64,000 bases of DNA. Origin: Isoptericola cucumis. Its GTDB lineage: Bacteria > Actinomycetota > Actinomycetes > Actinomycetales > Cellulomonadaceae. The position numbers and the translations under genes were made by a program. A model generated the notes under the pieces. The model saw only the letters and a program-made list of their open reading frames with translations, was not told where the DNA came from and did not search any database. The stretch lies in the NCBI RefSeq assembly GCF_014635665.1, contig NZ_BMDG01000002.1:62001-126000 (forward strand), written 5' to 3'. This document shows positions 8,473 to 20,782 of this stretch, one piece after another (position 1 is the stretch's first letter; every line of letters starts with the position of its first letter).

Positions 8473-8919
8473 TCAGCGCCCGATCGTGATGGCGCGGCCG
8501 ACGTCGGGGCCGGGCGCGGTGCGCACGGCCTCGACCCGCGCGGCGACGTCCGGCGGGAACGGCGCCGCGCGCCCGCCCGCCACGTGCAGCCCCAGCACCT
8601 CCTCGGTCGCCCGCAGGCGACCGCCCGACCACAGCTCGTGCCACAGGTGCAGCAGCTTGCCGGTGGCGCCGACGACGCTCGAGCGGACCTCCAGCTCGGC
8701 GCCCGCGGACACCTCGTCGAGGTACCGCACGTGCGCCTCGACCGTGTACAGCGAGGCGTCGTGGGCCTCCCGGTACTCCGGGCCGAGCCCGACGTGGTCC
8801 ATCACCGCGTCCGTCGCGTGCCCGAGCACGAGCACGTAGTAGGCCTCGCTGAGGTGGCCGTTGTAGTCGATCCACTCGTCGCGGACCGGCTCGCGCCAGG
8901 GCGGCAGCACGCCGCTCAC
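8473..8919 (-). CDS. cdhB: Betainyl-CoA thioesterase (hotdog fold)
   Basis: A 148-aa hotdog thioesterase. The DYNGHLSEAYY motif is the 4-hydroxybenzoyl-CoA-thioesterase-like signature. It overlaps the carnitine dehydrogenase gene by GTGA and is last in the operon. In Pseudomonas the same trio is CdhC, CdhA and CdhB, and the thioesterase releases glycine betaine from betainyl-CoA. The family assignment comes from sequence; the substrate is inferred from context. Another acyl-CoA thioesterase activity cannot be excluded. Confidence 0.8.
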   Translation of the reverse strand: MSGVLPPWREPVRDEWIDYNGHLSEAYYVLVLGHATDAVMDHVGLGPEYREAHDASLYTVEAHVRYLDEVSAGAELEVRSSVVGATGKLLHLWHELWSGGRLRATEEVLGLHVAGGRAAPFPPDVAARVEAVRTAPGPDVGRAITIGR

Positions 8920-9875
8920 GCGCGCCCCGTGGCGCGCAGCAGGGCGACGACCTGGCGGTCGCGCTCGGCGACGAGGTCGTCGACGGTGCGGCCGTCCGCC
9001 TCGTCCTCGCAGCCGTGCACGACGGCGTCCCGCAGCCCGGGGGTGAGCTCGGGTGCGTCGAGCCGCGTCCACGGCGAGAGCAGCGACGGGCCGAAGTGGT
9101 CGAGCATGTGCGCCATGCCGCCCTGGCCGCCGGCCAGGTGGAACGTGAGCATGGGGCCCTGGAACGGCCACCGCAGGCCCGGCCCGTCGGTGATGGACCG
9201 GTCGATCTGCTCCACGGTCGCCTCGCCGGCGTCGACCATGTGCAGCGCCTCGCGCCACAGGGCCTCCTGCAGGCGGTTGGCGATGAAGCCCGGGACCTCG
9301 CGGTCCATGGTGATGACCGACTTCCCGGCGGCGCGCAGGAAGTCCGAGGCCCAGGTCACGGCGTCGTCGTCGGTCCGCTCGCCGCCCACGACCTCGACCA
9401 GCGGGACGAGGTACGGCGGGTTGAACGGGTGCCCGACGACGGTGCGGCCGGGGACGGCGCAGTCGGTCTGCATGTCGGTCATCGGGTAGCCCGACGTGGA
9501 GGAGGAGATCACCACGTGGTCGGCGGTGGCGGCGTCGATGTCGGCGAGCAGCCTCCGCTTGAGCTCGAGGTCCTCCGGCGCGCTCTCCTGCACGAAGTCG
9601 GTGCCCTCGACGGCCTCGGCCAGCGTGGCGCAGACGGTGAGGTTCGCCCGGTCGGCGCCGTCCGCGAGGCCGAGCTCGGTGAGCGCGGGCCAGGCCGCGT
9701 CCACCAGGTGGCGCAGCCGGGTCCCGAAGTCGGGGGCGGGGTCCCAGGCGCGCACCCGGTACCCGCGGGCGAGGAAGTAGGCCGCCCAGCCGCCGCCGAT
9801 GACGCCGGCGCCGACGCAGGTGACCGTGCGGACCTCGTCCGGGGCGGTGCGGACGGGTGCGGTGCGGGCGGTCAT
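8916..9875 (-). CDS. cdhA: L-carnitine 3-dehydrogenase
   Basis: Oxidises L-carnitine to 3-dehydrocarnitine with NAD. The 319-aa length is normal for the family. A Rossmann motif is visible near the N-terminus (VGAGVIGGGWAAYFLARG, about residues 20-37). The segments DFVQESAPEDLELKRRLL, ISSSTSGYPMTDMQ and GHPFNPPYLVPLVEVVGGE are typical of carnitine dehydrogenases within the 3-hydroxyacyl-CoA dehydrogenase superfamily. The ATG overlaps the CdhC gene stop by 4 nt. It is encoded between the other two enzymes of the pathway, which supports this substrate over a fatty acyl-CoA. Confidence 0.88.
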   Translation of the reverse strand: MTARTAPVRTAPDEVRTVTCVGAGVIGGGWAAYFLARGYRVRAWDPAPDFGTRLRHLVDAAWPALTELGLADGADRANLTVCATLAEAVEGTDFVQESAPEDLELKRRLLADIDAATADHVVISSSTSGYPMTDMQTDCAVPGRTVVGHPFNPPYLVPLVEVVGGERTDDDAVTWASDFLRAAGKSVITMDREVPGFIANRLQEALWREALHMVDAGEATVEQIDRSITDGPGLRWPFQGPMLTFHLAGGQGGMAHMLDHFGPSLLSPWTRLDAPELTPGLRDAVVHGCEDEADGRTVDDLVAERDRQVVALLRATGRA

Positions 9876-10759
9876 CGGGCGCCCTCCAGCTGCAGGATCT
9901 CGCGGGCGTCGTTCGCGGTGGCCACCTGCGCGCCCATCGACTCGATGATGGTCCGGGCCCGGGTGACGAGCTGCGCGTTGGTGGCCTTGACGCCCTTGCT
10001 CAGGTACAGGTTGTCCTCGAGGCCGACGCGCACGTGGCCGCCCAGCAGCACCGACTGCGCCACCCATGGCAGCTGCATGCGGCCGAGCGCGAACGACGAC
10101 CACACCGCGCCGTCGGGGAGCTGGTCGACCAGCGTCGCCAGCAGCCGCGGGTCGGCGGGCATGCCGTAGGGGACGTCCATGCACAGCTGGAACATCGTGG
10201 GGGAGTCGATCAGGCCCTCCGCGACGAGCTTCTTGGCGAAGACGAGCTGGCCGGTGTCGAAGATCTCCATCTCGACGCGGGTGCCGAGCTCCTGGATGCG
10301 GCGGGCGCCGTCGCGCAGGATGTCCGGGGTGCTGACGTAGACCAGGCTGCCCTCGCCGAAGTTGAGGCTGCCGCAGTCCAGGGTGCAGATGTCCGGCTTC
10401 ACGGTGCCGACGTGCTTGAGCCGCTCCACGCCGTTCACCAGGTCCGTCTCCGGCAGGATGGTGGTCGGCTCCTTCGGGTCGAGGTAGAGGTCCCCGCCCA
10501 TGCCGGCCGTGGTGTTGACGACCACGTCGACGTCGCTGGCGCGGATCAGCTCGACCGCCTCGCGGTACAGCTCCGTCTCGCGCGACGGCGCCCCGGTCTG
10601 CGGGTCGCGCACGTGGACGTGCACGATGGCGGCGCCCGCGCGGGCGGCGTCGATGCCCGCCTGGGCGATCTGCTCCGGGGTGACGGGCACGTGCTCCGAG
10701 CGGCCGACGGTGTCGCCGGCGCCGGTGAGCGCGCAGGTGATGATGACGTTGCGGTTCAT
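9872..10759 (-). CDS. cdhC: 3-dehydrocarnitine cleavage enzyme (BKACE family)
   Basis: A zinc-dependent beta-keto acid cleavage enzyme of 295 aa. In the carnitine pathway it converts 3-dehydrocarnitine and acetyl-CoA to betainyl-CoA and acetoacetate. The metal motif HVHVRDPQTG (about residues 48-57) and the C-terminal RVGLEDNLYLSKG are family hallmarks. The start is ATG behind GAGAGGA. BKACE members act on several beta-keto acids; the neighbouring carnitine dehydrogenase and thioesterase fix the likely substrate here. Confidence 0.86.
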   Translation of the reverse strand: MNRNVIITCALTGAGDTVGRSEHVPVTPEQIAQAGIDAARAGAAIVHVHVRDPQTGAPSRETELYREAVELIRASDVDVVVNTTAGMGGDLYLDPKEPTTILPETDLVNGVERLKHVGTVKPDICTLDCGSLNFGEGSLVYVSTPDILRDGARRIQELGTRVEMEIFDTGQLVFAKKLVAEGLIDSPTMFQLCMDVPYGMPADPRLLATLVDQLPDGAVWSSFALGRMQLPWVAQSVLLGGHVRVGLEDNLYLSKGVKATNAQLVTRARTIIESMGAQVATANDAREILQLEGAR

Positions 10760-10825
10760 GGTGTCCTCTCGGGGGTCTTCGAGGTCGGTCGAGCGGTCGG
10801 GCGGGCCGTCGGTCGAGGGCGCGGG

Positions 10826-12016
10826 TCAGGCGCGGGTGCGTGCCACCGCGTCGGCGATCGCCTGCAGGCCCAGGTAGCTGAGGTCGCGGTAGTGGCGGTC
10901 CTCCCACGCGTCGGCGTACGGCCACAGGGAGGTCTTGACCACGACGACGCCACGGTCGCGGTCGACGAGGGTGAACTGGCCGTGGCTGCCGTCGGCGACG
11001 AGCACCCGGCCCTCGCGGTCCAGCGGCCACCAGTGCCAGGAGTACCCGGCGTGGGTGGTGTAGGCGCTGGGCAGCCGGCCGGGGGCGAGGAACGGGTACG
11101 GCGGGACGCCGTCGCCGGCGACCCACCCGGCCGACAGCAGCCGGTCCCCGTCCGGGGTGCCGCCCACCCGGCCGTCCAGCGCGAGCAGGCCCACCCGGGC
11201 CCAGTCGCGCGCGGTGGCGGCGACGCCGCCACCGGCCATCGCGACGCCGTCGCCGTCCACGCCCACGACGGCCTCGTCGGCGCAGCCGAGGTCGGCCCAG
11301 AGCCGGCCCACGGCGTCGGCGAACGGCACGCCGGTGGCCCGCTCGCGCACCCAGTCGAGCACCTGGGAGTCGGCCGTGCAGTACTCCCACTGGGTGCCCG
11401 GCCGGTGCTTCGAGCGCGTCTGCGCGAGCTGCGATCGCGTGCTGCCGCCGGTGCGGAACGCGCCCACCAGCCGGGCGGCGGGGCCGGCGGGGTCGCGGTG
11501 GTCCTCGGTCCAGTCGAGCCCGGTCGTCATGGTGATGACGTCGGTGACGGTGCAGGCGTCGTAGCCGGAGCCGGCCAGCTCGGGCACGTGGTCGGTGACG
11601 CGGTCGGCCAGGGTCAGGTCGCCCTCGGTGACGGCGCGCCCGACCAGCGTCGCGAGCAGGGACTTCGTCATCGAGGCACCGAGGAACTTCGTCCGCGGGC
11701 CGAGCCCGTCGGCGTACCACTCGTGCACGACCTCGCCGCGGTCCAGCACGAGCAGGCTGGTGGCGTAGGTCTCCGCCCGCCAGCGGTCGAGGTCGGCGAG
11801 GTGCCCGGCGCCGGCGACCTCGACGTCCAGGTCCCGGGGCGCCTCGGGGAGGCGCGTGGGCCGGGGCGCGGCGACGCGCACGTGCGGCAGGGCCGGGGAG
11901 CCGCCGGCGGGCAGGTGCGGGTCGACGAACCGCAGCGCCGCGACGGACCGCTCGGCGGGCGGCGCGGCCTCGGGGCTCTGCGGGCTCTCGGGGGTGACGG
12001 TGCTCTCGGTGCTCAC
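10826..12016 (-). CDS. Cytoplasmic serine hydrolase of the carnitine operon
   Basis: A 396-aa beta-lactamase/class-C-fold hydrolase. The catalytic S-x-x-K is seen as SMTK in FLGASMTKSLL (about residue 150). A Tyr motif follows in WEYCTADSQVL and a third motif around HAGYSWHWW. No signal peptide is visible, so it should act inside the cell. The start is GTG behind GAGAGGAC, which overlaps the preceding ATPase stop. It lies between the importer and the carnitine enzymes, so it may release carnitine from an imported ester such as an acylcarnitine. That is inference. The closest described subgroup is probably the esterase/6-aminohexanoate-dimer hydrolase type. Confidence 0.75.
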   Translation of the reverse strand: MSTESTVTPESPQSPEAAPPAERSVAALRFVDPHLPAGGSPALPHVRVAAPRPTRLPEAPRDLDVEVAGAGHLADLDRWRAETYATSLLVLDRGEVVHEWYADGLGPRTKFLGASMTKSLLATLVGRAVTEGDLTLADRVTDHVPELAGSGYDACTVTDVITMTTGLDWTEDHRDPAGPAARLVGAFRTGGSTRSQLAQTRSKHRPGTQWEYCTADSQVLDWVRERATGVPFADAVGRLWADLGCADEAVVGVDGDGVAMAGGGVAATARDWARVGLLALDGRVGGTPDGDRLLSAGWVAGDGVPPYPFLAPGRLPSAYTTHAGYSWHWWPLDREGRVLVADGSHGQFTLVDRDRGVVVVKTSLWPYADAWEDRHYRDLSYLGLQAIADAVARTRA

Positions 12017-12025
12017 GGCGTCCTC

Positions 12026-13834
12026 TCAGTCGATGCGCGGGGTGTGGGCCAGCAGCGTCCGCGTGTACTCCTGCTGCGGATGCTCCATCACCTCCACGAC
12101 CGGCCCCGACTCCACGAGCCGGCCGGCCGAGAGGATGTCGACCCGGGTGGCGATGGACCGCACGAGCGCCAGGTTGTGCGTCACGAAGAGCATCGCGATG
12201 CCCCGCTGGGTGCGCAGGTGATCCAGCAGCTCGACGATCGAGCCCTGCACGGACACGTCGAGCGCCGAGGTGATCTCGTCGCAGACGAGGACGTCGGGCT
12301 GGGCGGCCAGCGCCCGGGCGATCGCGACGCGCTGCCGCTCGCCGCCGGAGAGCCGGTCGGTGCGCAGGTCGAGCACGGCGGGGCCGAGCGCGACCGCGTC
12401 GAGCAGGTCGACCACCCGGTCGGTGGCCTGGCTGCCGCGGGCGAGGCCGAAGAGCTCCATCGGTCGGCGCACCAGCTGGCCCACCGTCTGGCGGGGGTTC
12501 AGCGACAGGTACGGGTTCTGGAAGATGTACTGGATGCGGCGGCGGTCGTCGCCGGTGCGGCGCCGGCTGGAGCGCGCCAGCTCGTGGTCCTCGAACCGGA
12601 TCCGCCCTGTCCACTGCCGGTGCAGGCCGCCGACGGCGCGCGAGATGGTGGTCTTGCCGCTGCCGGACTCGCCGACGAGCGCCACGCACTCGCCCCGGGC
12701 GAGGTCGAACGAGACGTCGTGCACCACCTGGGTGCGGCCGTAGGAGACGTTCAGCCCCTCGACCGCGAGGACGACGTCGCGCTCCACCGACGGCGGGGCG
12801 TCGGGCACGCGGCCGAGGTCGATGTCCCACGGCCCGAGCTCGTCGGTGCGCAGGCACCGGGCCCAGTGGTCGGTGTCGAGCTCGACGGGCACCGGCTCCG
12901 TGGTGGCGCAGGCGTCGGTGGCGAAGACGCACCGGTCGTGGAACCGGCAGCCCGACGGCCGGTTGCCCGGCTGCGGGGTCCGGCCGGGGATGCCGGCGAG
13001 CGCGCGGGCCTGGCTGACGTGCGGGATCGCGTCCAGCAGCGCGCGCGTGTACGGGTGGGTCGGGGCGGAGAAGACCTGCTCGCGGCGGCCCAGCTCGACG
13101 ATCCGCCCGGCGTACACGACGGCCACCCGGTCGGCGACCGTGCCGATGACGGCGAGGTCGTGCGTGACGTACAGGGCGGCGACACCGTGCGCCTCGCAGA
13201 GCCGGTCCATGGTCTCGAGCACGAGGGTCTGCGTGGTGACGTCGAGGCCGGTGGTCGGCTCGTCCAGCACGAGCACCTTCGGGCGGGGCAGGAACGCCAT
13301 CGCCAGGGCCACGCGCTGCACCTGCCCGCCGGAGAGCTGGTGCGGGTAGCGGTCGAGGAACGCGTCGTCGTCGGGCAGCCCCACCTCGGCCAGCCCGGCC
13401 CGCGCCCGCTCGAGGCGCCCGGCGGGCGTGTCGATGCCGCGCAGCTCGAGGAGCTCGACGATCTGCCGCCCGATGCGGATGCTCGGGTTGAGCGCGGACG
13501 CCGGGTCCTGCGGCATGTACGCGACGTGCTCGCCGCGCAGCAGCCGGACGTCGTCGTCGGACAGGCCGAGCACCTCGTGGCCGTCGACGACGACCTCGCC
13601 GGCGTCGATCACGGCGCCGGCGCGGGCGTGCCCGAGCAGGGCGGTGCCGATCGTCGTCTTGCCGGAGCCGGACTCGCCGACCAGGCCGACGACCTCGCCG
13701 GGGCGCAGGGTGAGGTCGATCCCGTCGACGACGTCCACGTCGCCGGCGGCGAGCGCGACCCGCAGGCCGCGCACGGTGCAGACGGCGTCCGGCGCCTCGG
13801 TGGTCGCGGCGGCACGCGCGGTGGTGGCGGTCAT
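12026..13834 (-). CDS. Dpp/Opp-type ABC transporter, two fused ATPases
   Basis: A 602-aa protein holding two complete nucleotide-binding domains that are usually separate (DppD and DppF). The first domain (about residues 18-260) has GESGSGKTT, LSGGQVQRVALA and VLVLDEPTTGLD. An oligopeptide-ABC C-terminal extension with Cys residues follows (CRFHDRCVFATDAC). The second domain (about residues 325-600) has GESGSGKTT and LSGGERQRVAIA. The ATG overlaps the upstream permease gene by 4 nt. It powers uptake of the carnitine-related substrate. Confidence 0.9.
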   Translation of the reverse strand: MTATTARAAATTEAPDAVCTVRGLRVALAAGDVDVVDGIDLTLRPGEVVGLVGESGSGKTTIGTALLGHARAGAVIDAGEVVVDGHEVLGLSDDDVRLLRGEHVAYMPQDPASALNPSIRIGRQIVELLELRGIDTPAGRLERARAGLAEVGLPDDDAFLDRYPHQLSGGQVQRVALAMAFLPRPKVLVLDEPTTGLDVTTQTLVLETMDRLCEAHGVAALYVTHDLAVIGTVADRVAVVYAGRIVELGRREQVFSAPTHPYTRALLDAIPHVSQARALAGIPGRTPQPGNRPSGCRFHDRCVFATDACATTEPVPVELDTDHWARCLRTDELGPWDIDLGRVPDAPPSVERDVVLAVEGLNVSYGRTQVVHDVSFDLARGECVALVGESGSGKTTISRAVGGLHRQWTGRIRFEDHELARSSRRRTGDDRRRIQYIFQNPYLSLNPRQTVGQLVRRPMELFGLARGSQATDRVVDLLDAVALGPAVLDLRTDRLSGGERQRVAIARALAAQPDVLVCDEITSALDVSVQGSIVELLDHLRTQRGIAMLFVTHNLALVRSIATRVDILSAGRLVESGPVVEVMEHPQQEYTRTLLAHTPRID

Positions 13835-14739
13835 CGGTCGCCTCCCTTCGAGGTGAGCTGGGCGATGCCGTCGGCGGCGAGGTTCGTGCCGACCGCGAAG
13901 ATGCCGATCATGAGCACCGGCGCCAGCACGCCCCAGGGCTGGACCAGCAGCGCCAGCCGGTTCTCGTTGATCATCTGGCCCCAGTCGGCCGCGCCCGGGT
14001 CGGTGGAGAAGCCGAGGAACGCGATGCCGGCGACCATGCCGATGGAGTACGTGAGCCGCAGCCCGGCCTCGGCCAGGAGCGGTCCGCTCATGTTGGGCAG
14101 GACCTCGCGGACCACGATCCGCAGGCGGGACTCGCCGAGCGCCTCGGCGGAGGTCACGAAGTCGCGCCGGGTGAGGCCGAGGGCCACGCCGCGCGAGACC
14201 CGGGCGACGCGGGGCGCGTGCGAGATCCCGACGAGGACGACGATCAGCCACATGGTGGGCTCGGCCACGGTGGACAGCACCAGCAGGGTGAGCAGGATCT
14301 GCGGGAACGCGAGGACGGCGTCGTTGAGGCGCATGACGACCTCGTCGAACCAGCCGCCCACGTACGCGGCCAGGATGCCGACCAGCACGCCGAGCACCAG
14401 GCCCACGACGGTGGACAGGAGGGCGACGACGAGGACGGACAGGCCGCCGTGGAGCACCCGCGAGAGCACGTCCTGCCCCAGGTAGTCGGTGCCCAGCACG
14501 CCGGCGGTGCTGTACGGGTCGCCGGTGATCTCGTGCTCGCCGTGCGGCGCGAGCCACGGTCCGACCACGGCGACGAGCACGACGAACGCGGTGATGGCGA
14601 GGCCGACGACCAGGCGCGGCTGCCACGACCGGCGGCGGGACGCCGTGGAGGAGCCACCGGCGGGGGCGCCGTCGGCGGCGGGGGCGAGGGCGGTGCGGGC
14701 GGTCCCCGACGTGGCGGGGGCGGTGGCACGGGCAGTCAT
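13831..14739 (-). CDS. Dpp/Opp-type ABC permease (DppC-like)
   Basis: A 302-aa inner-membrane permease. An N-terminal disordered tail precedes the first transmembrane helix (about residues 42-62). Next comes the OppC-type GTDYLGQDVLSRVLHGG motif, four or five further helices, and the EAA-type loop EALGESRLRIVVREVLPN that contacts the ATPase. It overlaps both neighbours by 4 nt (ATGA). Confidence 0.9.
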   Translation of the reverse strand: MTARATAPATSGTARTALAPAADGAPAGGSSTASRRRSWQPRLVVGLAITAFVVLVAVVGPWLAPHGEHEITGDPYSTAGVLGTDYLGQDVLSRVLHGGLSVLVVALLSTVVGLVLGVLVGILAAYVGGWFDEVVMRLNDAVLAFPQILLTLLVLSTVAEPTMWLIVVLVGISHAPRVARVSRGVALGLTRRDFVTSAEALGESRLRIVVREVLPNMSGPLLAEAGLRLTYSIGMVAGIAFLGFSTDPGAADWGQMINENRLALLVQPWGVLAPVLMIGIFAVGTNLAADGIAQLTSKGGDR

Positions 14740-15806
14740 GAGCTGATCGCCGTCCTCTCTCGGGGCGTGCACAGGATGGACAGCACGTCGGCGACGAGGT
14801 TCACCACGACGTACACGGCGGCGACGATCATCGCGAGCGTCTGGACCATGGGGATGTCGCTGTTGCGGACGCTGTCGACGAGGCTCGCGCCGATCCCCGG
14901 GTACGAGAAGAGGTACTCGACGAGCACGATGCCGCTGGCCAGCCAGGCGAGCTGGAGGCCGATCACCTGGATGGCGGGCACGACGGCGTTGCGCAGCGCG
15001 TGCCGGCGCAGGACCACGCGCTCGGGCACGCCCTTGAGCCGCGCGAGCTCGACGTAGTCGCTGTCGAGGACGTCGAGCAGCGTCGAGCGCATGATGCGGA
15101 TGACGTACGGGGCGACGACCAGCACCAGGGTCACGACGGGCAGGATCATCGACGCGGGCTGGGTCCACGGGCCCTCGCCCCCGGCGCTGATCGTGACGGC
15201 CGGGAGGGCGTGGAAGACCACGGTGGAGAAGAGCGCCACGAGCACGATGCCGACGACGAACTCCGGCAGGCCGGCGAGCGTCAGCACGACGAGCTGGATG
15301 CCGTGGTCGAGCCGGCGCCCGCGGTGCCGCGCGCTGAGGAGCGCGACGGCGAACGAGACCGGGATGATGACGACGGCGGCGATCAGCACCAGGACGCCGC
15401 TGTTGACGACGCGGTCGCCGATGAGCTCGCCCACGGGGAGCCCGTTCGCGACGGACGTGCCGAGGTCGCCGCGCAGCAGGCCGCCGAACCAGTGCCAGTA
15501 TCGGTCCCACAGCGACTCGTCGAGGTGCAGCTGCTGGCGGATCTGCTCCGCGCGCCCGAGGTTGGTGGCGGCCTCCTTGCCGAGGATCGCCTTGACCGGG
15601 TCGCCCAGGGCGGCCGTGGCCAGGAAGACCAGCACGGACACGAGCCACAGGGTGAGCGCGGCGAGCCCCACCCGCCGGGCGGCCCAGAGGGTCCACGCGG
15701 TCGCGGGCGAGCGGCGGGCGCTGCTGGACCCGGAGGTCGTGGTGGCCGGCGGCCCGGCGGGCGGCCCTGCCGCGGGGGCGGGGTCGTGCGTGCGGACGGT
15801 GGTCAT
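14736..15806 (-). CDS. Dpp/Opp-type ABC permease (DppB-like)
   Basis: A 356-aa permease with a Pro/Ala-rich N-terminal tail, a first helix near residues 50-70, a periplasmic-side region, then five helices with an EAA loop near LKGVPERVVLRRHALRNAVVPA. It sits 1 nt after the binding-protein stop. It forms the transmembrane pore with the DppC-like subunit. Confidence 0.9.
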   Translation of the reverse strand: MTTVRTHDPAPAAGPPAGPPATTTSGSSSARRSPATAWTLWAARRVGLAALTLWLVSVLVFLATAALGDPVKAILGKEAATNLGRAEQIRQQLHLDESLWDRYWHWFGGLLRGDLGTSVANGLPVGELIGDRVVNSGVLVLIAAVVIIPVSFAVALLSARHRGRRLDHGIQLVVLTLAGLPEFVVGIVLVALFSTVVFHALPAVTISAGGEGPWTQPASMILPVVTLVLVVAPYVIRIMRSTLLDVLDSDYVELARLKGVPERVVLRRHALRNAVVPAIQVIGLQLAWLASGIVLVEYLFSYPGIGASLVDSVRNSDIPMVQTLAMIVAAVYVVVNLVADVLSILCTPRERTAISS

Positions 15807-15807
15807 G

Positions 15808-17391
15808 TCAGGCCCCCTCGACGAACGACACGCGGTGGAACTTGTAGCCCCCGCTGGGCAGGTACCGGTCGGGCTCGAAGCCCTGGACGAGGTTCGAGTA
15901 CCCGTCCACCTGCTTCTTGAAGCCCCAGACGATGAGGCCGCCGCGCTCGTGCTCGATCTCCTGGCAGCGGTGCAGGAGCTCGCCGCGCCGGGTCTCGTCG
16001 ACCGTCCGCGTCGCCTGCGCGAACAGCTCCTGGAACTCGGCGTCGTCGAAGTGGGTCTCGTTGTACGGCGAGCTCGGCAGCGCGCACGACGCGACCTGCG
16101 GCACGTAGTTGCGGGTCACCCAGAAGTCCTGGGCGAAGGGCCACTGGAGGTACTGCTCGCCGTAGAAGGTGTTGGGGTCCGCCTTGTTCAGGCGCACGTC
16201 GATGCCGGCCTTGCGCGCCTGGTCGACGAAGAGGTTCGCGGCCTCCACGCCGCCGGCGCCGACGGCGCTGGAGGTGACGAGCTCGACCTGGAGGTCCTCG
16301 TGCCCGGCCTGCTTGAGCAGCGAGCGGACCTTGTCGAGGTCCTGCTCGCGCTGCGGCAGGTCGTCGGCGTAGGCAGGGTCGAAGGGGGCGTACAGGTCGT
16401 TGCCGACGAACCCGTACCCGCCCAGCGCCTGGTCGATCATCTGCTGGCGGTCCACGACGAGGCGCATGGCCTCGCGCACCCGGACGTCGGAGAAGGGCTC
16501 GGTGTCGACGCGCATGGTGAAGGGCATCCAGGCGCCGGTGTCGGAGACGAGGGCGGACGAGCCCTGTTCGGCGACGGCGCCCGTGAGGTAGGAGGGCAGG
16601 TTGTCGATGCTCTGCACCTGCCCGGCCAGGAGGGCGTTGACCTTGGCGGCGTCGTCGGCGAAGTCGTAGATGACGAGCTCGTCGACCCAGGCCGCCTCGC
16701 CCCAGTAGTCGTCGTGCCGGCGGAAGCGGCTGAGCTGGCCGGGGGTGAAGGTGTCCGCCCGGAAGGCGCCGGTGCCGACCGGGTTCGCGGGGTCGAAGTC
16801 GGTGGGGACGATCCCGGCCGTGTACTCCGCGATCAGCTGGTCGAACACGGAGTAGGGCTGCTTGAGCGCGAACCGCACGGTGTGCTTGTCGAGCGCGCGG
16901 GAGTTCTTGATGTCCAGGACCTCGGTCAGGGGTCCGGCGGCGCCCGTCTCGGGGTCGGTGATGCGGGACATGGTAAAGAGCACGTCCTCGGCGGTCATCG
17001 TCTTGCCGTGGTGGAAGGCGACGTCGCGGCGCAGCTCGACGGTCCAGGAGGTGGCGTCGCGGTTCGGCGTCACCGCCGTCGCGAGCGCGGGGGCGAGCTG
17101 GTAGGCGGAGTCCCAGAACAGCAGCGGCTCGTACAGGTTGTTGACCCGCGCGATGTCGGGGTTGGTGACCGGGAAGTGCGGGTCGAGGGAGTCCTTGAGG
17201 CCGCCGCCGGTGGCGCCGTGGCTGAGGGTGCCGCCGCGCCGTCGTGGCGCTGCCGGATCGGGTGGCGGGGGGACGGTGCCGCACCCCGCGAGGGCGGTCG
17301 TGCCGACCGCTCCGGCCGCTGCGATCGCCGCCAGTCGGAGCACGTCCCGCCGCGAGATCCCGCGGCCACCTGGACCGAGTCCGTTGTAGAT
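15808..17391 (-). CDS. ABC substrate-binding lipoprotein, apparent AUC start
   Basis: A family-5 (DppA/OppA-like) solute-binding protein, about 527 aa. The N-terminus has a twin-arginine motif (SRRDVLRLAAIAAAG) and a lipobox LAGC, so it is a Tat-exported lipoprotein. Mature sequence such as GAFRADTFTPGQLSRFRRHDD and VDRQQMIDQAL is typical. No ATG, GTG, TTG or CTG occurs in frame between the promoter and the RR motif. AAGGAG (17398-17403) stands 6 nt before ATC at 17389-17391, which is the best start. The first canonical codon, GTG at 17341-17343, would delete the RR motif and has no ribosome site. Confidence 0.82.
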   Translation of the reverse strand: MYNGLGPGGRGISRRDVLRLAAIAAAGAVGTTALAGCGTVPPPPDPAAPRRRGGTLSHGATGGGLKDSLDPHFPVTNPDIARVNNLYEPLLFWDSAYQLAPALATAVTPNRDATSWTVELRRDVAFHHGKTMTAEDVLFTMSRITDPETGAAGPLTEVLDIKNSRALDKHTVRFALKQPYSVFDQLIAEYTAGIVPTDFDPANPVGTGAFRADTFTPGQLSRFRRHDDYWGEAAWVDELVIYDFADDAAKVNALLAGQVQSIDNLPSYLTGAVAEQGSSALVSDTGAWMPFTMRVDTEPFSDVRVREAMRLVVDRQQMIDQALGGYGFVGNDLYAPFDPAYADDLPQREQDLDKVRSLLKQAGHEDLQVELVTSSAVGAGGVEAANLFVDQARKAGIDVRLNKADPNTFYGEQYLQWPFAQDFWVTRNYVPQVASCALPSSPYNETHFDDAEFQELFAQATRTVDETRRGELLHRCQEIEHERGGLIVWGFKKQVDGYSNLVQGFEPDRYLPSGGYKFHRVSFVEGA

Positions 17392-17402
17392 TGTTCTCTC
17401 CT

Positions 17403-17465
17403 TGTTCGCATGACGAGCACCCTGTTGAACGATGCGAACATAGGGGCCGAGGTAGGTGACGTCAA
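17403..17465 (-). promoter_or_regulatory. Promoter and IclR-type operator of the carnitine operon
   Basis: On the minus strand, -35 TTGACG (17460-17465) and -10 TATGTT (17437-17442) are separated by exactly 17 nt. Inverted half-sites TGTTCGCAT (17403-17411) and ATGCGAACA (17432-17440) match perfectly, and the second overlaps the -10. Each lies within a looser dyad of the TGTTCG-N-CGAACA type used by IclR-family regulators. The divergent IclR gene is the obvious partner. Confidence 0.75.
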
Positions 17466-17512
17466 ACCGGCCTGGCAAGCCGGGCAAGGGATCGCAAAGG
17501 ACGGAGTCGGAG

Positions 17513-18313
17513 ATGGACGACGGGGTTCCCGAGGAGGTCGAGGTCGACGCCGGGCGGCGCAGCGGCCGGGTGCAGTCGGTCGACCGGGCCGTCGCCCTGC
17601 TGCGCGCCGTCGCCCGGTCGAGCAGCCCCGGGGACGCCACCGTGGCCGCGCTCGCCGTCCGGTGCGGGCTCAACCGCGCCACCGCGTGGCGGATCCTCAC
17701 GACCCTCGAGGCCGAGAGCATGGTGGCGTGCGACCGCCGCACCGGCCAGTGGCAGATCGGCGTCGGCCTGGTCGAGCTCGCCGGGACGACCGGGGTCGAC
17801 AGCCTGGTCCGCTCCGCCCAGCCGGTGCTGGAGCGCGTCAGCCTGCAGACGGGCGAGACCGCCGCGCTCGCCGTCTTCCGGGGTGACCGGCTGACCTACG
17901 TCGACGAGGTGGCGCCGACGTCCGTCGTGGCCGCGTCGTGGAAGGGCCGCACCGTGCCGGTGCACGCGACGTCGACCGGCAAGGTGCTGCTCGCGTTCCT
18001 GCCCGTGGAGTCGGCCCGCCGCCTGCTCGGGGCGCGGCTCAAGCGCTACACCGCCACCACCGTCACCGACCGGCACGCGCTGGACGCCGAGCTCGACGAG
18101 ACCCGGCGCCGCGGCTACGGCGTCTGCCGGGGCGAGTACGAGCCGTCCGCGTACGGGGTGTCGGCGCCGGTGCTCGACTCGCACGGCCACCCGCTCGCCG
18201 TGGTGAGCGTCTGGGGGCCGGGCAGCCGGCTCACGGAGGAACGGTTCGAGGCGCTGGGCGAGGTCGTGCGCGACGCGGCCGACACCATCGCGCGGCCGAG
18301 CCCGCGGCGCTGA
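17513..18313 (+). CDS. IclR-family regulator of the carnitine operon
   Basis: A 266-aa regulator. The N-terminal winged helix (about residues 20-80) includes TVAALAVRCGLNRATAWRIL. The C-terminal IclR effector domain has the usual ATSTGKVLLAFL and GYGVCRGEYEPSAYGVSAPV segments, the latter with the ligand-domain Cys. The ATG at 17513 is favoured because GGAG at 17503-17506 stands 6 nt upstream; a GTG at 17456 is in frame but poorly placed. It is divergent from the carnitine operon with paired half-sites between them. It is probably a repressor relieved by a carnitine metabolite, which is inference. Confidence 0.85.
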   Translation: MDDGVPEEVEVDAGRRSGRVQSVDRAVALLRAVARSSSPGDATVAALAVRCGLNRATAWRILTTLEAESMVACDRRTGQWQIGVGLVELAGTTGVDSLVRSAQPVLERVSLQTGETAALAVFRGDRLTYVDEVAPTSVVAASWKGRTVPVHATSTGKVLLAFLPVESARRLLGARLKRYTATTVTDRHALDAELDETRRRGYGVCRGEYEPSAYGVSAPVLDSHGHPLAVVSVWGPGSRLTEERFEALGEVVRDAADTIARPSPRR

Positions 18314-19303: not shown

Positions 19304-20782
19304 TCAGCGCACCCGGTCGAGCTGCAGGTGGTCGAGGTTCCAGTTCTGGAACGCGTCGTCGGGCAGGCTCACGCGCACGGTGTGCCGGCCCTGCGTGAGG
19401 TGCTGCACGACGCCGCTGGCCTGCACCTCCTGCTTGTCGTGGCTCGTGGTGCTGAGCACGTCGACGCGCTCGCTCTCCGGGCCGCCGTCGAACGACACGG
19501 TGTAGACGCCGGCGGGTGTGTACGGGGAGGAGACCCGCGCGGACAGCTCGTAGCGTCCCGTGCGGGGGACGTCGACCTCGTACGTCAGCCACTCGCCGCC
19601 GCGCAGCCACGAGACGCGCACGTTGCCGTCGGCGTCGGAGATGTCGACGTCCTCGCCCGGCCGCATGTCGAGGTTGCCGCGGTTGCCGGCGTCGACGTCG
19701 TGGTAGGCGACGCCGGCGCCGCCGGGCGCGAAGTCCTCCGCCTGCACGCGCACGCTGCCGCGCGGGACCGCGTCGCCCTCGCCGGTGCGGAGCCAGCGCT
19801 CGATGGCCTCCACGTCGTCGGTCTGGACCATCGACGCGCGGAAGGTCGTGACGAGGCGCTCCCAGCCGCGGCTCGGGTCGACCAGCGACGCCTCGTCGGT
19901 CAGGTGGTCGGCGAGGCCGTCCCACATGGAGTTGGCCCACACCCGCGCCTCGCCGGCCATGCGCTCGAGGAACGGCGCCCGCGCGACCGCGTCCTGCTCG
20001 GTGCCGAACACGACCTCGTAGCCCACGGGCTGGTCGTCGCCGAACTCGTCGAACGAGGCGAGGTTGTCGTCGCTGATCATGTGCAGGTAGAGCGCGTCCG
20101 GGTGCGACTCGCGGAAGGCCTGCACCTCGTCGACCGGCGCGTCGGACTTGAACAGGCCGTTGCGCACCGTGCCCGTGTCGACCAGGACGTCCCAGATCTC
20201 CTCGCGCGCCGGCCAGCCCTTGTCGAGGTTGACGAGCCCGCGGTCGGCGACGAGCTCCATCGCCTCCGCCAGGGTCGGGACGCGCTCGTCGGTGAGGGCG
20301 GTCTGCGCGCCACCGAGGTGCTCCTTGAGCCGCAGCTCCTTGATCTCGGCCAGCGTGAAGGACGACACCTCGCCGGTGCCGTCCGTCGTGCGGTCCACCG
20401 TCGTGTCGTGCATGAGGACGGGGACGCCGTCCGCGGTCAGGCGCACGTCGAGCTCGACGATCTCCGCACCGTCGTCGAACGCGGCCTCGATGGCGGGCAG
20501 CGAGTTCTCGGGCGCCACGCGCCACTGGCCGCGGTGCGCGGCCGTGAGGATCTTCGCGTTCTTGCCGTGGTCCAGCAGGTCGCGGTACGCGCGCTCGGCG
20601 TCCGTGCGCCCGCCCTGGCCGTTGCCGCCGAACGCGAGGGTGGATGGTGCCTTGTCGGTGGTTGGGGCGGCCTCGGCGCCGCCGGTCGAGGTCGCGGCCG
20701 TCGTGCCGCCGACCGCCGCCGCTGCGGTGAGCGTGACGGCGAGAGCGGACGTGACCGTGCGGCGGAGTCGTGTGGAAGCCAT
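19304..20782 (-). CDS. Secreted glycerophosphodiester phosphodiesterase with carbohydrate-binding-like C-terminus
   Basis: A 492-aa exported protein with an Ala-rich signal peptide (about residues 1-39). The GDPD catalytic domain (about 78-335) shows AHRGQWRVAPENSL, ELDVRLTADGVPVLMHD and DRTTDGTG, providing the His, Glu and Asp metal/catalytic residues. The C-terminal 140 residues (from VRVQAEDFAPGGAG to DHLQLDRVR) resemble a CBM6/35-type jelly-roll, so it may bind a wall or plant glycan. It likely hydrolyses glycerophosphodiesters or teichoic-type polymers outside the cell. The ATG has TAGCGT 7 nt upstream (20790-20795). Confidence 0.88.
   Translation of the reverse strand: MASTRLRRTVTSALAVTLTAAAAVGGTTAATSTGGAEAAPTTDKAPSTLAFGGNGQGGRTDAERAYRDLLDHGKNAKILTAAHRGQWRVAPENSLPAIEAAFDDGAEIVELDVRLTADGVPVLMHDTTVDRTTDGTGEVSSFTLAEIKELRLKEHLGGAQTALTDERVPTLAEAMELVADRGLVNLDKGWPAREEIWDVLVDTGTVRNGLFKSDAPVDEVQAFRESHPDALYLHMISDDNLASFDEFGDDQPVGYEVVFGTEQDAVARAPFLERMAGEARVWANSMWDGLADHLTDEASLVDPSRGWERLVTTFRASMVQTDDVEAIERWLRTGEGDAVPRGSVRVQAEDFAPGGAGVAYHDVDAGNRGNLDMRPGEDVDISDADGNVRVSWLRGGEWLTYEVDVPRTGRYELSARVSSPYTPAGVYTVSFDGGPESERVDVLSTTSHDKQEVQASGVVQHLTQGRHTVRVSLPDDAFQNWNLDHLQLDRVR

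Follow-up and report, generated by a model that had tools for sequence, protein, structure and literature searches.

An array of eight genes with a divergent regulatory gene occupies positions 8473-18313 of a 64,000-nucleotide stretch of DNA from Isoptericola cucumis (the window, meaning the whole stretch analysed). It is read here, with a probability of about 0.55, as a self-contained operon by which the cell takes up and degrades a carnitine ester, the substrate most likely being a short-chain O-acylcarnitine. From right to left, the genes encode a substrate-binding protein (SBP), two permeases (P1 and P2), an ATPase protein (ABC), a serine hydrolase (SH), a BKACE enzyme, a putative carnitine dehydrogenase (CDH), and a thioesterase (TE). 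In the proposed route, the lipoprotein SBP and its Dpp-type importer would bring the ester into the cell, where the cytosolic, NylB-like SH would split it into an acid and carnitine. CDH would then oxidize carnitine to 3-dehydrocarnitine, which BKACE would convert with acetyl-CoA to betainyl-CoA and acetoacetate, and TE would finally release glycine betaine from betainyl-CoA.

The eight genes likely form one operon, since four junctions (P1/P2, P2/ABC, BKACE/CDH, and CDH/TE) are 4-nt overlaps and the remaining gaps are of only 1 nt (SBP-P1), 9 nt (ABC-SH), and 66 nt (SH-BKACE). The first-pass annotation, made from the sequence alone, had described these genes with their positions and overlaps, the importer, the SxxK hydrolase, and the divergent IclR gene, and all of this is confirmed by Pfam families and coordinates. 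Its suggestion that the eight-gene order be sought in other actinobacteria was also fruitful: the order recurs, for example in Isoptericola sp. BMS4 and Nocardioides insulae, and its identical appearance in other genera places the array beyond chance. The window belongs to a 4.46-Mb genome; among the named relatives found, Isoptericola sp. BMS4 is the nearest, its binding protein being 91% identical.

Probable carnitine-to-betaine enzymes

All three families of the carnitine-to-glycine-betaine pathway are encoded in one overlapping array: PF02737/PF00725 (CDH), PF05853 (BKACE), and PF13279 (TE). The best NCBIfam model for CDH is L-carnitine dehydrogenase PRK07066 (327.6 bits, under the cut-off of 414); the fusion model PRK07531 gives 283.4 bits and its cut-off of 592 is not reached. 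TE matches positions 351-477 of the same fused carnitine 3-dehydrogenase model, also under its cut-off, and several homologues of the Brevibacterium type are CDH-TE fusions. HxH and GLEDN stretches, which presumably have a role in BKACE enzymes, are visible in the BKACE sequence.

From the gene families and their conserved context, combined with established knowledge of these families, the array very probably encodes the carnitine-to-betaine route, and this earlier claim is well supported. A pathway for another 3-hydroxy acid, with CDH, BKACE, and TE as paralogues of different substrate, is distinctly improbable. It would agree with the fact that all three proteins fall under the NCBI cut-offs for named functions and that lambda-crystallins are the closest relatives of CDH with solved structures, but it is opposed by the identity of the best CDH model, by the match of TE to the thioesterase part of the fused model, and by the fusions of the Brevibacterium type. 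Two features of related loci speak in the same sense: the regulator of one of them carries a BetI-type domain, and a BCCT gene adjoins two others (L043 and L135).

The importer

The importer has the make-up of the Dpp/Opp type, with an SBP_bac_5 lipoprotein, two binding-protein-dependent permeases, and two ATPase domains with oligo_HPY. Unlike usual importers of this type, it has both ATPases fused in one protein and adjoins carnitine enzymes. No membership of the quaternary-amine class (CaiX-CbcWV type) was detected, SBP matching SBP_bac_5 alone in Pfam at E 0.001; CaiX belongs to another transporter class than SBP_bac_5. The genome also encodes four BCCT carriers, which could serve free betaines. 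In two actinobacterial metagenome-assembled genomes, one of them of Thermoleophilia, relatives of the binding protein have an MttB-family (PF06253) gene nearby (L128:19790-21220 and L155:5529-6968), another link to quaternary amines.

The serine hydrolase

SH aligns over about 305 residues with the 6-aminohexanoate-dimer hydrolase NylB (E 1.3e-43). Its Ser115, Lys118, and Tyr212 fall in register with the NylB active site (SxxK and Tyr) and are invariant among six orthologues. Conversely, where NylB has an EDY stretch, SH has EDH, with His173 invariant in the six, and its gene context of carnitine catabolism is unlike that of NylB. No signal peptide was seen by eye.

Of the 16 matches that SH gave at E 1e-35 among 394 genomes of the class, one is its own gene, four reach 58-61% identity, and the other eleven no more than 38%. 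All four of the closer matches sit in an identical array behind IclR. Nocardioides insulae and Isoptericola BMS4 also share the array including SH, and in a Nocardioidaceae metagenome-assembled genome it can be followed as far as SH, where the contig ends. In total, seven other orthologues were found (at least 56% identity), all in this array, one being cut by a contig end. At E 1e-50, 2 of the 297 genomes of the order have SH, and both belong to the genus of the window. Three of the eleven weaker matches were inspected, and SBP, CDH, BKACE, and TE lie near none of them, one contig (L212) offering only 6.9 kb; near another of the three (L210), an ABC ATPase segment is 36% identical to that of the window importer. 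As judged from these gene neighbourhoods, SH is dedicated to this array.

Two SH-related genes merit mention. The SH gene of L209 (G942 contig 1) carries one in-frame TGA, which reflects either a decayed copy or a sequence error. A distant genome encodes, at L083:9673-10902, a PF00144 protein with about 30% identity to SH; its gene is close to BKACE and CDH on the opposite strand, possibly as a chance neighbour.

Hydrolases in related loci

Gene surroundings were annotated by a codon-based gene caller and BLAST for 49 CDH places (L039-L087) and for 80 named loci found via the binding protein, the latter being biased to Dpp-linked loci. A tree was built from 76 loci with BKACE and a CDH at least 60% identical, after removal of duplicates; loci with less similar CDH are outside the tally. 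Before counting, L088 and L160, which duplicate the genomes of L039 and L056, were dropped, as was L162, which lacks BKACE. The tree holds 58 Dpp-linked loci, two of them unscored owing to contig ends (L129, L165), and 18 Dpp-less ones. L112 was scored from the whole locus as EstB, a mis-called ATPase having broken its run.

One of three hydrolase families is carried by 46 of the 56 scored Dpp-linked loci: 37 have an EstB-type enzyme (PF00144), 6 an HSL-type enzyme (PF07859), and 3 a NylB-like SH. SH and EstB are only 23-25% identical, yet both belong to PF00144. Two of the ten remaining loci (Arthrobacter L149 and L154) have an alpha/beta hydrolase gene placed divergently beside the regulator, its product 38-39% identical to one from a Novosphingobium plasmid, where a PF00561 alpha/beta hydrolase follows BKACE and CDH/TE. 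These are called HocS-like here; hocS of Pseudomonas aeruginosa presumably encodes an alpha/beta hydrolase. Conversely, all four kinds are absent from the 18 Dpp-less loci with CDH and BKACE. If the CDH-based samples are taken by themselves, a hydrolase accompanies 8 of 9 Dpp-linked loci versus 0 of 18 Dpp-less ones (Fisher's test, p 4e-6, ancestry ignored).

Comparable gene sets, in which the hydrolase is interchangeable, are thus present in other actinobacteria of soil, and a well-supported group of four Arthrobacter loci illustrates the exchange. L153 has EstB behind the ATPase and L151 (Arthrobacter mobilis) has an HSL-type enzyme in that slot, while L149 and L154 have neither, but the divergent HocS-like gene. 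That different folds occupy one role argues for a common reaction, and since the solved structures closest to the EstB type and the HSL type are those of carboxylesterases and acetyl esterases, this reaction would be ester hydrolysis.

Several candidates were rejected. The gene (c2) preceding BKACE in most other loci was considered as a replacement hydrolase, but its sequence and one Pfam scan identify a regulator of TetR type whose C-terminal domain is of BetI type. The Novosphingobium hydrolase could not be assigned to the HSL type, similarity not being measurable, and an Abhydrolase_1 gene near the Dpp-less L076 was not counted as part of that locus, as it follows another gene behind TE. 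Beside three hydrolase-less loci (L124, L131, L147), Pfam scans gave no esterase family, the other hydrolase-less loci being read by eye only. EstB was also searched in eleven genomes of hydrolase-less or unscored loci, a twelfth (L089) being an SH genome. Relatives at 32-45% identity occur elsewhere in eight of the eleven, and none was found at E 1e-15 in the genomes of L061, L091, and L129.

Importer and esterase without carnitine dehydrogenase

In seven loci, the importer is found with EstB right behind it and no CDH nearby, so the importer and the esterase constitute an independent unit. Three of these are in Saccharopolyspora genomes, which have a CDH orthologue (74-76%) elsewhere. The other four, in Kocuria (L158, L163, L164, L167), belong to genomes with no CDH orthologue, the best match being of 31-32% identity; here the device may harvest carnitine itself, for example as an osmolyte.

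Comparison with known carnitine operons

The presence of an esterase in a carnitine operon has a precedent that the first-pass annotation did not mention. The operon caiX-cdhCAB-hocS of P. aeruginosa encodes a hydrolase for short-chain acylcarnitines, and its binding protein CaiX functions together with the CbcWV transporter (PMC5806209). This operon and the window share CDH, BKACE, thioesterase, binding protein, and hydrolase; P. aeruginosa uses CaiX-CbcWV and the regulator CdhR, whereas the window has a complete importer of Dpp type and an IclR regulator, and its hydrolase belongs to PF00144. In Acinetobacter baumannii, an acylcarnitine hydrolase gene adjoins a BCCT carnitine carrier gene (PMC6562126). 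That locus combines the BCCT carrier with the Rieske oxygenase route (CntA/B), unlike the ABC importer and CDH/BKACE of the window. Relative to these known operons, the array differs in its Dpp-type importer and its PF00144 hydrolase. In the open-licence literature searched, no Dpp-type importer for carnitine or its esters was recognised; most subscription journals lie outside this search, so absence from print is not shown.

Nature of the imported substrate

The earlier proposal that the natural substrate is larger than carnitine, and probably an ester, is upheld in part. The dedication of SH to the array and the occurrence of several hydrolase families in Dpp-linked loci and none in Dpp-less ones speak for it. 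A number of observations, besides the model scores given above, weigh on the other side. A hydrolase was not found in 8 of the 56 scored Dpp-linked loci, one of which (L133, Nocardioides mangrovi) is an IclR-headed array without SH. On the tree, Dpp-linked loci can be set against Dpp-less ones in two phylogenetically independent comparisons only; since Fisher's test ignores ancestry, no significance is claimed for the link between importer and hydrolase, and the association is to be regarded as a pattern in the gene content rather than as proof. Of the binding proteins with solved structures, the nearest have nickel, agropine-type, or unknown ligands in their annotation and in no case carnitine, and the nearest characterised relative of SH cleaves an amide. 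In two related loci (L057, L060), genes for an amidase and an M20 enzyme are present as well. Finally, the importer-esterase unit supports import of an ester but also shows CDH to be dispensable, and the substrate may be a different ester.

Some of these observations would be explained if the importer carried free carnitine, and perhaps related betaines, with the hydrolase as an optional add-on for esters entering by any way, as for hocS. The loci without a hydrolase would fit, as would the hocS operon, whose binding protein works with CbcWV, a different importer (PMC5806209), and the MttB-family gene near two relatives of the binding protein. Such a reading is nevertheless rather unlikely, given that hydrolases of the families searched are absent from all 18 Dpp-less loci, that seven loci without CDH nearby keep EstB right behind the importer, and that four BCCT carriers are at hand for free betaines.

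The similarity of SH to an amidase, the peptide type of the importer, and the amidase and M20 enzyme of the two loci mentioned would instead suggest import of an amide- or peptide-like carnitine conjugate, or of another carnitine precursor, with SH acting as an amidase like NylB. This is highly improbable: the other enzymes found in the SH role (EstB-type, HSL-type, and HocS-like) have esterases as nearest solved relatives where these were looked up, and we could point to no common natural carnitine amide as substrate.

Distribution and possible transfer

Searches with CDH gave a match for 34 of the 297 order genomes (E 1e-45) and for 14 of the 396 phylum genomes (E 1e-60), both counts including the genome of the window; within the genus, 2 of the 6 genomes have CDH. 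Between the window and Nocardioides insulae, BKACE is 88% and CDH 84% identical, which suggests that the array moved by horizontal transfer. A 138-kb plasmid of Citricoccus sp. SGAir0253 (NZ_CP039425.1, L188) carries a nine-gene cassette in the order TetR-BKACE-CDH-TE-SBP-two permeases-ATPase-serine hydrolase, the last being of EstB type. Four proteobacterial plasmid loci were also viewed (L189-L192), and only L191 has a hydrolase directly behind CDH.

Start codon, candidate promoter, and regulator

The coordinates of all features are collected in Table 1. In the SBP gene, no in-frame ATG, GTG, or TTG precedes the twin-arginine stretch. The start region (17375-17406, minus strand) contains AAGGAG followed, after 6 nt, by ATC at 17391, and the 32-nt stretch around this codon is identical in a three-genome alignment of the window, Isoptericola BMS4, and Nocardioides insulae; the N. 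insulae start region contains no ATG, GTG, or TTG. SBP is therefore likely translated from a rare AUC start, as read from these alignments, which corrects the gene model; the alternative start is GTG at 17343.

A candidate promoter and an inverted repeat are located between the IclR and SBP genes. The repeat overlaps the -10 box, and its end adjoins the ribosome site. Both promoter boxes are largely retained in two relatives, the -10 box being kept in three genomes, and the repeat is imperfect in both relatives compared. The nearest NCBIfam model of the IclR protein is BhcR (173.6 bits versus a cut-off of 350). Control of this single promoter probably lies with the divergent IclR protein, which would act as a repressor.

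Table 1. Features of the array and its control region (positions in the window)
Feature	Position	Strand	Basis
TE, hotdog thioesterase (putative betainyl-CoA thioesterase)	8473..8919	-	PF13279 4HBT_2, E 2.2e-25
CDH, putative L-carnitine 3-dehydrogenase	8916..9875	-	PF02737 + PF00725
BKACE	9872..10759	-	PF05853, E 3.8e-97
SH, cytosolic NylB-like serine hydrolase (SMTK), proposed carnitine-ester hydrolase	10826..12016	-	PF00144
ABC, fused double ATPase, Dpp/Opp type	12026..13834	-	PF00005 twice + oligo_HPY PF08352
P2, DppC/OppC-type permease	13831..14739	-	PF00528 + OppC_N PF12911
P1, DppB/OppB-type permease	14736..15806	-	PF00528 + PF19300
SBP, family-5 substrate-binding lipoprotein	15808..17391	-	PF00496, E 3.2e-70
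Candidate operator, perfect 9-bp inverted repeat TGTTCGCAT / ATGCGAACA	17403..17440; arms 17432-17440, 17403-17411	-	
Candidate sigma-70-like promoter, TTGACG - 17 nt - TATGTT	17437..17465	-	read from sequence
IclR-family regulator, divergent	17513..18313	+	PF09339 + PF01614; longest frame from GTG 17456

Near the operon, a glycerophosphodiester phosphodiesterase with a CBM6 domain is encoded at 19304-20782 on the minus strand; no link between the two is shown.

Fate of the products and significance

The genome lacks two markers of glycine-betaine degradation, the FAO_M domain of dimethylglycine and sarcosine dehydrogenases and a Rieske alpha subunit of PF00848, other betaine routes not having been searched; its single PF02574 match lies in a 1610-residue frame consistent with MetH. 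Glycine betaine may be an end product or an osmolyte, and acetoacetate and the freed acid may constitute the carbon gain.

In a wider perspective, the Dpp-type importer and its exchangeable cytosolic hydrolase may be a dedicated carnitine-ester uptake device and a cassette spread among actinobacteria, for which four hydrolase families of two folds would have been recruited to one job; the NylB-like and EstB-type (PF00144) enzymes have one fold, and the HSL-type and HocS-like alpha/beta hydrolases the other. This broader proposal is put forward tentatively, at slightly less than an even chance. If true, the array would be a candidate for active acylcarnitine uptake via a peptide-type ABC importer, and a function would be given to the "serine hydrolase" genes that follow such importers in many actinobacterial loci. 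The automatic labels "peptide importer" and "nylon-oligomer hydrolase" would be corrected, and these loci would offer a natural test of enzyme replacement, in which hydrolases of different folds serve one reaction in one operon.

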